Shown: piece by piece, positions 10,996 through 13,542 of the stretch
Layout: each line of letters begins with the position of its first letter
How positions within the stretch are numbered: the stretch's first letter is position 1
Source: Thermorudis peleae
Lineage (GTDB): Bacteria; Chloroflexota; Chloroflexia; Thermomicrobiales; Thermomicrobiaceae
Direction: 5' to 3'
Assembly: GCF_000744775.1 (NCBI RefSeq)
Contig: NZ_JQMP01000003.1
Span: 496,001-560,000 of the forward strand
DNA length: 64,000 nucleotides
Made by a program: the position numbers and the translations under genes
Notes under the pieces: model-generated
The model's database searches: none
Seen by the model: only the letters and a program-made list of their open reading frames with translations
Told to the model about the DNA's origin: nothing

Positions 10996-11463
10996 GGGGC
11001 AGCACTGCGCACGGGCGGCGTGGAGCCGGTGGTGGCGCAGGCGCGGTTCTGACAGACTTTCGGCTGCTCGCTTCATCATGTTCCCAATTGCTGCGTGATA
11101 AGCAAGCGATCACTTGTTGAGCGGGAAACGCTGTGCGTGCGGCAGCGTCGGCGGGGCAGGGTTGCCCGCTGTGGTGGTGGGTGGGAATGGTGCGCAGTGA
11201 AGCGGCGCGTGGTCTTGCCTGGAGTCGATCCTGCGATAGCGGGAGGGTGCATGGACGCCGCTCACGGGGCGGCTCGCCGGCAACACGGTGTGGCGATGGG
11301 CTGCTTGACCGATGTTGATGGGGCGCCGCCGCTGATGTACGCGGGTTAGCGCGGTTGAGGCTGCGTTGAGGGGACAAGCGTAGTAGAGATCAGCGGAACG
11401 AGTTGGGGTGTTTGGCGGCCGCGTGGCAAGCAGTGGGGAGGGGAAACACCGGCGGATCAGGGG
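10996..11463. other. Gene-poor GC-rich stretch
   Basis: About 470 bases between the tautomerase gene and the promoter of the ArsR-type regulator. Open frames on both strands are compositionally biased (R, P, S, A-rich) and show no domain or convincing ribosome site. It may be further decayed sequence from the catabolic island. Confidence 0.5.
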
Positions 11464-11492
11464 TTGACAGCGTGAGGGTTTTCGGTTATGCT
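11464..11492 (+). promoter_or_regulatory. Sigma-70-type promoter for the ArsR-type regulator
   Basis: TTGACA at 11,464-11,469 and TATGCT at 11,487-11,492 with a 17-base spacer. Predicted start of transcription is near 11,499, about 30 bases before ATG 11,530. The same -35/-10 pair and spacing occurs at 17,296-17,324. Confidence 0.7.
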
Positions 11493-11529
11493 GATATCGT
11501 CATAGCGAGGGAGGCCCGGCCAGGGCAGG

Positions 11530-12606
11530 ATGGGCGAGCTACTGGTGGGCCGGCCGGCGCTCAAACTCGATGTTGCGGTGTCCGTGCCGCTCGATCTGAC
11601 GTCGGTGATTTCCTTAGTCTTTCGGGCTACCGACCCGCGCCGGTTTGATCGCTGGCTGGTCGAGACGAGACAAGCACTTGGAGCGACGTGGGAGCACGAT
11701 CTCGATACCTTGCTCGGGTTTTCGGGGCGGCTGCTCTACTACATTGAAGAGCTGTTGATGTCGTTTGATCCGTTCCGGCCCGAGCGGCTCGCCGCCAGTT
11801 TTGATGACTATCTGGCTCATCTGCGGTCCCTGCCCGCGTGGGCCTACCGAAGCATGGCGATTCAGGCGATGCTGCGGGTGCATCAGGACCGTGGTGTCCT
11901 GGAGGCACCGCCGGACACGGATGATGCAGCTGCCTGGCGGGCGTTCTTTGAGCCCGGCATCACGCGCGCCGATTTAGATGAGGTCGTCGCGCTGGTGCGT
12001 GCACCTGAACAACTCAAGGAGCGGACGATTCGCTTACTTGAGCGCTTCTGGGTGGAGCGCTATGCGGCGGAGTTCGCCCGGGTTCTGCCGGTTATGAAGC
12101 GCGCAGTGCGGCAGGCGAAGGCGACGACCTATTCAAGCGTCGCAGTTGCCTTCGAGGAGCTGAGTGGCCATCGTCTGCCGGAGGAAGTGCAGCTGGCGCT
12201 GCCGCGTGTCGAGCGGGTGACGTTTTGTCCATCTTATCATCTTGGTAATTTCGTGCAGTTCATCCTGTACCCGCCTGAGCTGATCCTCTACTTTAACTGC
12301 CAGCGCACGAGTGCTGCGACGCAACCGGCTGAAGGCTCGGTGATTTCACCTGATCTCTTGCCCGGACTCCGCGCGCTCGCTGATGGAACACGCTTGCGGA
12401 TTATCGAGTTGTTGCGTGGTGGCGAGCGCTACGCCCAGGAGATCGTTGGCCAGTTGGGCATCAGCCAGTCAGCGGTTTCGCGACATCTGGCGATGCTTGA
12501 AGCGGCTGGTATTGTGACTGTCCGGCCGGCCAACGGGATGAAATACTACGCGATCAACGTCCAGCGGCTTCGGCAGATTGCCGAGGAGCTGGAACAGATC
12601 GGCTAG
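11530..12606 (+). CDS. ArsR-type winged-helix regulator with large N-terminal domain (DUF5937-like)
   Basis: 358 aa. The last 90 residues form an ArsR/SmtB-like winged helix (LADGTRLRIIELLRGGERYA then IVGQLGISQSAVSRHLAMLE), ending in a wing (NGMKYYAIN). The first 260 residues are an uncharacterised alpha-rich domain of the type found in large Chloroflexota/Actinobacteria ArsR proteins. No Cys-rich metal site is evident. ATG 11,530 lies downstream of a good promoter, with AGGG close upstream. Target and inducer are unknown; the nearby catabolic island is a candidate. Confidence 0.8.
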   Translation: MGELLVGRPALKLDVAVSVPLDLTSVISLVFRATDPRRFDRWLVETRQALGATWEHDLDTLLGFSGRLLYYIEELLMSFDPFRPERLAASFDDYLAHLRSLPAWAYRSMAIQAMLRVHQDRGVLEAPPDTDDAAAWRAFFEPGITRADLDEVVALVRAPEQLKERTIRLLERFWVERYAAEFARVLPVMKRAVRQAKATTYSSVAVAFEELSGHRLPEEVQLALPRVERVTFCPSYHLGNFVQFILYPPELILYFNCQRTSAATQPAEGSVISPDLLPGLRALADGTRLRIIELLRGGERYAQEIVGQLGISQSAVSRHLAMLEAAGIVTVRPANGMKYYAINVQRLRQIAEELEQIG

Positions 12607-12639
12607 CGGTCGTACTGCGACCGTGCGACAATATAGTGC

Positions 12640-12863
12640 GTGTCTGAGGGTCAGCCGCTTCCGGCCGAGGACTGCCACCTGATCCCGCCGTTGGATCAGG
12701 CCCGGCATCACCTCTTTCGACCCCTCAGTGGCTCTGCATGGCAGAGCTACTCCTCCTTGACCCTCACCCCGCCAGGTCGGTTCGGCCACGGTCTGGCGCG
12801 GCCCACCCCCTGGTGGCTGCCCCTCGGACAGCAGAAGGGCCAGGCTCCATGCCTGGCCTTTTT
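12640..12863 (+). ncRNA. Candidate structured non-coding RNA, about 220 nt
   Basis: A TATAGT -10-like box at 12,632-12,637 (weak -35) would start an RNA near 12,644. P1 then pairs TGAGGGTCA (12,645-12,653) with TGACCCTCA (12,758-12,766), 9 perfect pairs, closing a junction. Inside are GCCG-CTTC-CGGC (12,654-12,665), an extended hairpin (GAGG/CCTC, TGCC/GGCA and CCTGATCC/GGATCAGG, 12,667-12,714) and an 11-bp hairpin (12,727-12,737 with 12,741-12,751). Beyond P1 lie CGCCAGG/TCTGGCG (12,770-12,776 with 12,792-12,798) and CCACC/GGTGG, then an intrinsic terminator. No known family is recognised. It could also be a structured 3' UTR of the regulator gene. Confidence 0.5.
12838..12863 (+). terminator. 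Intrinsic terminator
   Basis: GGCCAGGC (12,838-12,845), loop TCCAT, GCCTGGCC (12,851-12,858), then TTTTT. It would end the ncRNA candidate and/or transcripts of the ArsR-type gene before the convergent cupin gene. Confidence 0.85.
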
Positions 12864-12897
12864 GCTTTGCTTGGGTCTGATGCCGCGTGCTGGCCGG

Positions 12898-13542
12898 TCA
12901 CTGTGCTGAATCACGGTCGCATGGCTGGTTACTATAGCCTGATCGGAACGGGGTGACCGTGCCACGGTCAGGATCGTAGCGATGACGCCAGACGCAGCCA
13001 GTGTCGTTGCCGAGGAGGTGGATCGAGACCGACGGTTCAGCCGAGATGGTGGTCACGCGGTGGATATCTTCTTCGGGCGGCAAGAGGGGATAGCACTCGC
13101 CAGGATTGATTTGGCGCTCGCGGATGCGCTGCAGTTGTGCGTGGCCAGCGTCAGGGTCGCCTTCGACAAGTGCAAACACGTCCTCGCGCTGTTGTCCTCG
13201 GTAGAGGCCAACGATGCCCCAGGCCAGGTGATCATGCACGGGCGTGCTGGCACCGGGCGGGACGACCAGGGAGAAGAGGCTCAGGCTGCCATCGCCGGCA
13301 CGGAAGAGGAGGTACTGGCCGATGCCGTTTCCCATGCCACTTGTCATATCGGGCTGCGCGAAGGCGTCGGGGAGCCAGCCTTCCTGACGGAGCAGGGCTT
13401 GGAATGCTGGAAGGAGGCGCGCGACGCGTTGTGCGGGATCAGGCTCTTGCGCAATGATCTTGCGCGCTTCGGCGATGAGCTCACGCACGGCGAAGGCATC
13501 GACAAACCATTGATCGTCAGGATGGGATGCGAACCAGGTCAT
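12898..13542 (-). CDS. Cysteine dioxygenase-like cupin protein
   Basis: 214-aa single-domain cupin of the thiol dioxygenase family. The metal-binding HxH is visible in TPVHDHLAWGIVGLYRG (about residues 101-117), and a third His candidate in EEDIHRV. Such enzymes oxidise cysteine or related thiols to sulfinates with Fe(II), so a role in thiol catabolism is likely but the substrate is open. AAAGGAG lies about 9 bases before ATG 13,542. A promoter, paired palindromes and a terminator-like leader hairpin lie upstream. Confidence 0.75.
   Translation of the reverse strand: MTWFASHPDDQWFVDAFAVRELIAEARKIIAQEPDPAQRVARLLPAFQALLRQEGWLPDAFAQPDMTSGMGNGIGQYLLFRAGDGSLSLFSLVVPPGASTPVHDHLAWGIVGLYRGQQREDVFALVEGDPDAGHAQLQRIRERQINPGECYPLLPPEEDIHRVTTISAEPSVSIHLLGNDTGCVWRHRYDPDRGTVTPFRSGYSNQPCDRDSAQ

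Follow-up and report, generated by a model that had tools for sequence, protein, structure and literature searches.

A candidate family of pseudoknotted regulatory RNAs associated with an ArsR-type regulator in Thermomicrobiales

The locus and its transcription unit

The window, a stretch of 64,000 nt from Thermorudis peleae, contains a structured element at 12640-12863, located between a regulator gene on the plus strand (11530-12606) and a convergent CDO-like gene on the minus strand (12898-13542). The initial annotation had correctly described these convergent flanking genes and noted that no sense gene lies downstream. An 89-aa ORF that covers the element (12640-12909) was rejected as coding and had no Pfam match, and ARAGORN found no tRNA or tmRNA in the 64-kb window. 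The following features precede the element:

11464-11492, plus strand: probable promoter of the regulator and RNA unit, TTGACA-17-TATGCT (10 of 12 matches in the scan, 0.2 expected)
11493-11506, plus strand: imperfect palindrome GATATCGTCATAGC that immediately follows the -10 element; putative operator
11530-12606, plus strand: conserved regulator of 358 aa with a C-terminal ArsR-type winged HTH (residues about 280-350)
12607-12623, plus strand: P0 hairpin, CGGUCG-UACUG-CGACCG, directly 3' of the regulator stop; its arms vary between genera while their complementarity is kept

The HTH of the regulator matched Pfam HTH_5 (4e-15) and the NCBIfam model HTH_metalloreg, and comparison of a model of the protein with solved structures showed that it resembles the SrnR-type ArsR protein 7p6f in the HTH part only. 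The N-terminal domain of about 270 aa (residues about 9-270) had no match in Pfam or PDB, and it is possible that it represents a new sensor domain. Its identity is 84-89% between genera and 47% in the most distant named relative. In Thermomicrobium, the regulator ORF (L031:6001-7197; also L032, L033, L034, L041 and L064) does not have the stop codon of other genera; the frame runs on through P0, P0b and the RNA's 5' strands to an end within P3, with the tail ...AAGRSLLAEDKPPHPAVG. The ORF of L038 stops earlier, so this C-terminal extension is not strictly kept.

A promoter scan of 11400-12950 gave a single match, that at 11464-11492, before the regulator, and in 15 of 15 relatives examined from f1 (Thermomicrobiaceae, the family of the window), TTGACA-N17-TATNNT lies 65-84 nt ahead of the regulator start. 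Previously, a TATAGT box (12632-12637) had been taken as a promoter that places the RNA start exactly at helix P1. We could not sustain this claim: the box has no -35 element, gave no match in the scan and is not conserved, its position in relatives being a linker (UUAACAACUCAA-like), and no promoter directly before the RNA was found in the window or in three f1 relatives. In the same four sequences, no terminator was found between the regulator and the RNA. Because the P0 sequence varies while its pairing is kept, P0 is probably transcribed, and this pattern fits an RNA hairpin better than an operator for the regulator, which was rejected as an explanation for P0. With neither a promoter of its own nor a separating terminator, and with the P0 pairing kept, the f1 RNA probably forms the 3' portion of the transcript that encodes the regulator, as judged from these sequence features. 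In f3, a second family of the order Thermomicrobiales, and in a single f5 genome, a plausible promoter directly precedes most of the RNAs (one f3 promoter by scan, the others by eye). The stand-alone RNA that had been suggested for the window may therefore hold in these relatives.

This arrangement raises the question of whether the RNA is a cis-acting 3'-UTR element that acts on the regulator mRNA, through its stability, termination or translation, and has no function in trans. Its position directly 3' of the regulator, with no intervening promoter or terminator in f1, and its conservation only together with the regulator agree with such a role. However, the f3 and f5 copies mostly have a promoter-like site between regulator and RNA, the triple pseudoknot described below exceeds the needs of a stability element, and the RNA pairs with the regulator 5' UTR without specificity; we regard this explanation as unlikely. 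In the last comparison, native pairs of the RNA and the regulator's own 5' UTR paired no better than swapped ones, and we rejected the idea that the RNA acts by pairing with that leader; no target mRNA was found.

Equivalents of the palindrome after the regulator promoter were found in Thermomicrobium (GATATCGCGATATCG) and Thermalbibacter (AATATCGTCATAAG), and the f3 RNA promoters contain the same ATATCGCGAT core. Of 9 f3 upstream regions, 6 matched ATATCGCGATAT at a minimum of 10 of its 12 positions (shuffled-region probability 0.014 each), while f1 regions between regulator and RNA lacked this palindrome at that level. The presence of the palindrome at the regulator promoter and at the f3 RNA promoters fits a model in which the regulator represses both itself and the RNA.

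Fold and interlocked pairings of the RNA

The element was predicted to fold with a minimum free energy of -117.6 kcal/mol (12640-12863), compared with -90.4 +/- 4.65 in dinucleotide shuffles (z -5.84; 0 of 200 as low). The minus strand also scored (z -4.04), but G-U pairs in the conserved helices and their variants fit the plus strand only, and the RNA was therefore placed on that strand. Its parts are as follows:

12644-12834, plus strand: structured RNA core, the match to covariance model R2, which was built with this sequence included
12645-12653, plus strand: P1 5' strand UGAGGGUCA, partner 12758-12766
12652-12658, plus strand: PB 5' strand CAGCCGC, overlapping the inner end of P1, partner 12813-12819
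12663-12668, plus strand: K5, GGCCGA, which pairs with the P5 apical loop (pseudoknot PK) and overlaps the first 2 nt of P2
12667-12714, plus strand: P2/P3 stem-loop (GAGG...CCUC; UGCC/CGGC; CCUGAUCC-CGCCGUU-GGAUCAGG), with compensatory changes
12720-12726, plus strand: linker ACCCCUC before P4, containing CCUC, predicted unpaired 0.85
12728-12750, plus strand: P4 hairpin GUGGCUCUGC-AUG-GCAGAGCUAC, in all aligned relatives, with double changes
12750-12758, plus strand: anti-Shine-Dalgarno-like linker CUCCUCCUU after P4, its CCUC predicted unpaired 0.96
12758-12766, plus strand: P1 3' strand UGACCCUCA, partner 12645-12653
12768-12801, plus strand: P5 hairpin, whose loop contains K3, with double changes at five pairs
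12782-12787, plus strand: K3, UCGGCC, within the P5 loop, partner of K5
12813-12819, plus strand: PB 3' strand GUGGCUG, after P5
12835-12863, plus strand: intrinsic terminator AAGGGCCAGGC-UCCAU-GCCUGGCCUUUUU; strong hairpins also follow the RNA in the relatives read

The 9-bp helix P1 (UGAGGGUCA/UGACCCUCA), the hairpins P2/P3, P4 and P5, and a strong intrinsic terminator at the end are thus present, as the initial annotation had stated. The junction of three hairpins that it proposed is part of the fold but does not account for all of it: there are two additional pairings, of 12652-12658 with 12813-12819 and of 12663-12668 with the P5 loop at 12782-12787.

A homologue search in Thermomicrobia recovered the RNA across genera, with compensatory changes in 16 aligned sequences. 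RNAalifold analysis of ten sequences returned P2/P3, P4, P5 and the helix that closes the 5' and 3' parts, with double changes in 18 of 52 predicted pairs; the changes in P2/P3 include C-G to G-C and C-G to U-A. Three further interlocked pairings were read in the 16 sequences. P1 joins the 5' strand to the strand just before P5, PB joins the next part of the 5' strand to the strand after P5, and PK joins GGCCGn to nCGGCC in the P5 loop. Because P1 crosses PB and PK, the RNA is a pseudoknot. Strands of these helices were anchored by hand at nearly constant spacing, with K3 23 to 26 nt past S2 and S3 32 to 36 nt past K3. Over the 16 sequences, 95% of the cells of P1, PB and PK taken together were paired, compared with at most 50% in slid-partner controls, and 33 cells carried double changes, compared with 13.2 in shuffles (0 of 500 as high, although these shuffles ignore relatedness). 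Counts of double-change pairs and of pair types were not clearly above shuffles. P1 and PB were also each examined alone. For PK alone, the observed score was reached in 15 of 2000 permutations. At single positions, one pair of P1 appears as A-U, C-G, U-A and U-G across relatives, two positions of PB show double changes (A-U/G-C and C-G/U-A), and the last pair of PK is A-U, U-A, G-U or G-C across genera.

These data bear on another explanation of the element, that it consists of unselected G+C-rich hairpins around a terminator. The genome is G+C-rich, and terminators are common between convergent genes; however, the compensatory changes, the synteny and the conservation in 30 genomes argue against this explanation, which is refuted by the covariation and which we consider practically untenable. 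That a structured RNA exists here and that it is linked to the regulator are almost certain.

In the window, P1 and PB share two nucleotides, as do K5 and P2, and the common 5' strand of P1 and PB had led us to suspect a bistable switch. In genus g4, P1 (UUGAGG/CCUCAA) and PB (GUCAACCG/CGGUUGAC) lie on nearly adjacent segments, and in the other genera a few bases at the boundary are common to both. Because the two helices can coexist in g4, a pseudoknot is the simpler reading, and the switch was set aside as the main one. The same evidence applies to a metabolite-sensing or catalytic RNA, in which a ligand could shift the competition of P1 and PB for the 5' strand at their boundary. Both helices are conserved despite their common bases, and there are invariant stretches such as the CGCCGU loop; against this, the terminator forms independently of P1 and PB, there is no following gene to be switched, known riboswitch and ribozyme families gave no match, and the near-adjacent g4 helices are able to coexist. 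We consider a sensor or catalyst very unlikely, and retain the pseudoknot as the topology of the RNA.

Distribution and gene neighborhood in relatives

BLASTN against relatives recovered the RNA from further genera. When named genomes were scanned with the regulator alignment, 13 loci were obtained, from Thermomicrobium, Thermalbibacter longus, Sphaerobacter and uncultured Thermomicrobiaceae; at 10 of them this RNA is present 3' of the regulator. Within f1, the RNA lies directly downstream of the regulator in 18 of 21 genomes, 14 of them detected with R2 (including G004, locus L075) and 4 by eye; the latter belong to genus g4 (L076-L079), and three of them score weakly with R2. As for the three f1 genomes without the RNA, the contig of G010 ends right after the regulator, and G014 and G015 have no regulator match.

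In f3, a longer, divergent RNA lies 3' of the regulator homologues, and its parts come in an equivalent order: the P2/P3 element, CCUC linkers, P4, more CCUC, the P5 hairpin and a terminator. Model R3 gave 12 strong f3 matches, 11 of which adjoin the regulator; the remaining one stands at the start of a contig, across a break from the end of the regulator contig. When R3 was run on 400 genomes sampled evenly from the phylum, it returned one strong match (f3) and one partial match (52 nt). From their place and anatomy, and without a sequence score, we infer that the f1 and f3 RNAs are homologous. In f3 RNAs such as L093, L087 and L102, the P5 loop TGATCGC has a complement further downstream, GCGATCGA, and in L102 both strands are changed (GGTCGC/GCGACC), which suggests that the f3 P5 loop may form a pseudoknot with a partner other than that used in f1.

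The regulator is the immediate upstream neighbor of the RNA at all related loci and the only constant neighbor across them, and the strong matches amount to one RNA copy per genome. The convergent CDO-like gene was rejected as a functional partner, as it is present only in genera g1, g3 and g5. Two R2 matches in family f6 (L060 and L061) were discarded as weak (E 0.009 and 0.09) and without a regulator or homologous anatomy, as was a weak or partial model match in another class (L144). A search of the plasmid collection gave no match.

Other arrangements were seen downstream of the regulator. An f5 genome (L088/L043) has a TTGACC-17-TATAGT promoter followed by an RNA-like region with a CCCCTCTGATTTCCTCTTTTGACG segment that is also found in Sphaerobacter. 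In two other genera (L091 and L107), the place is occupied by another C-rich RNA-like element, CCGCTGCAACGG...TCCGGACCACAGG...CCCTTCCCTCCCCTGTG...CCCGGAGA, with a promoter of the TTGAC-17-TATA type. In family f2 (L080, L081, L083, L084 and L085), an apparent metallo-beta-lactamase-fold gene follows the regulator and no RNA is visible.

Relation to known RNAs and proposed function

At the gathering level, Rfam 15 gave no match in the 64-kb window, and a relaxed scan of 12590-12910 (E up to 5) gave sub-threshold noise with nothing above chance, in agreement with the initial annotation's view of an undescribed ncRNA. Scans of 14 f1, f3 and f5 loci likewise gave no match to the RNA; a MIR173 match at L075 480-581 lies outside it and was dismissed as a chance match. 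The best near-misses were SorX and SorY (RF02784 and RF02651), which also have a C/U-rich segment followed by a G+C-rich terminator; they scored 18.1 and 16.5 bits, far below their cut-offs (46.6 and 111), and what matched was mainly the terminator hairpin. The RNA resembles 6S RNA (RF00013) in its length of about 200 nt and its paired 5' and 3' parts; however, it is not one long hairpin with a central bubble, and the whole window genome gave no 6S match. RNase P RNA and the small SRP RNA were located elsewhere in this genome (G000:C4:50741-51095, 1.6e-29 and 94.6 bits, just under the cut-off of 100; and G000:C3:1202362). A riboswitch has its aptamer upstream of the gene that it controls, while here the downstream gene is convergent and the terminator is independent of the helices.

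HDV-like ribozymes are nested double pseudoknots that self-cleave, with a catalytic cytosine after P4 and the strand order P1 5', P2 5', inner hairpin, P1 3', hairpin, P2 3'. The order S1a, S1b, P2-P4, S2, P5, S3 of the window RNA presumably resembles theirs, a likeness that we take as a lead only. The window RNA differs in its inner part, which is about 105 nt long with two hairpins, and no invariant cytosine motif was seen after P5 and no Rfam match was obtained.

A literature search for structured RNAs in Thermomicrobia, made within a limited library of papers, returned no report of this RNA, and two large structured-RNA surveys (PMC8632094 and PMC2864571) make no mention of Thermomicrobia, Sphaerobacter or Thermomicrobium. 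We conclude that the sequence at 12607-12863 belongs to an undescribed RNA family, which likely acts by a variant of a known mode.

The motif CCUC occurs 4.88 times per RNA in f1 and 4.33 times in f3, compared with 2.85 and 2.10 in dinucleotide shuffles, and the observed counts were never reached in 100 shuffles per family; GAGG is also somewhat enriched in f1. The motif shows a modest bias toward being predicted unpaired relative to C/U bases in general (0.54 versus 0.45 in f1; 0.58 versus 0.47 in f3). In the window, two of four CCUC sites are predicted unpaired and the remaining two lie within P2 and P1. Linker sequences are not constant across genera, as could also be expected of linkers in a scaffold. 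The 16S tail of bacteria is ...GGAUCACCUCCUU; the window RNA contains GGCAUCACCUCUUUC and CUCCUCCUU. Enriched and accessible CCUC-type motifs are what an anti-Shine-Dalgarno (anti-SD) sRNA mechanism calls for, a likeness of action and not of family membership.

A precedent is NfeR1, an sRNA with three redundant anti-SD motifs in unpaired regions that is wired to NtrC, being controlled by regulators and feeding back on one of them (PMC10746234). The rhizobial NfeR1 / alpha-r14 RNAs resemble the window RNA in being structured RNAs whose unpaired regions carry several C/U-rich anti-SD motifs, in having stems that vary strongly, and in transcription tied to regulators (PMC10746234). In contrast, NfeR1 consists of three simple hairpins that all display the ultraconserved loop CCUCCUCCC in identical form, whereas the motifs of the window RNA are shorter, variable and mainly in linkers, and its scaffold is an interlocked pseudoknot. 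With CCUCCUCCC absent, one CUCCUCCUU in a linker and no Rfam match, the window RNA was not assigned to alpha-r14 / NfeR1.

Alternatively, the RNA might act via a protein, the CCUCU linkers on a rigid pseudoknot scaffold binding an RNA-binding protein that is titrated, by a CsrB-like logic, or guided. The short motif repeated in linkers between helices, the single copy per genome among strong matches, and a conserved fold more complex than a seed-pairing sRNA requires are all compatible with this, but no candidate protein was identified and the motifs differ (ACCUCU, UUCCUC, CUCCUCC); we consider this explanation rather unlikely.

Based on the CCUC enrichment, the bias toward unpaired sites, the likeness to the 16S tail and the NfeR1 precedent, we put occlusion of Shine-Dalgarno sequences first. 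A regulator-controlled sRNA that occludes ribosome-binding sites is, from the sequence evidence, a function that seems quite possible and that we propose tentatively. In such a mechanism, the regulator promoter of f1 would probably be repressed by the regulator itself (autoregulation), and the RNA would be transcribed together with the regulator, as the 3' portion of its message, from which it may be excised by processing; in f3, the RNA would come mostly from its own promoter, which bears the same operator-like palindrome. P1 and PB would lock the 5' strand and K5 would pair with the P5 loop, and the interlocked pseudoknot would keep the termini together and leave exposed the pyrimidine-rich linkers, in which CCUC(U/C) recurs. 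Translation of target mRNAs would probably be blocked when these linkers pair with the purines of the Shine-Dalgarno sequence, in the manner of the NfeR1 (alpha-r14) sRNAs. Sequence comparison supports the compensatory structure, the regulator linkage, the terminator, the motif enrichment and the common palindrome that enter into this model. Expression, co-transcription and processing of the RNA, repression by the regulator, Shine-Dalgarno pairing and targets are the inferred parts of the model.

Taken as a whole, these RNAs may constitute a new regulatory family in at least two families of Thermomicrobiales, in which an interlocked three-helix pseudoknot presents several anti-SD linkers, is encoded with and controlled by its own ArsR-type regulator, ranges between 3'-UTR-embedded and independent forms, and serves as a broad regulator of translation; we put this full reading forward as a possibility. 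The family combines strong comparative support and a fixed partner gene with a topology that is open to direct probing. If the mechanism is true, a transcription factor and a pseudoknotted anti-SD RNA would form one module, and comparison of the 3'-UTR-derived and the independently encoded forms of the RNA would make the origin of sRNAs from 3' UTRs testable.
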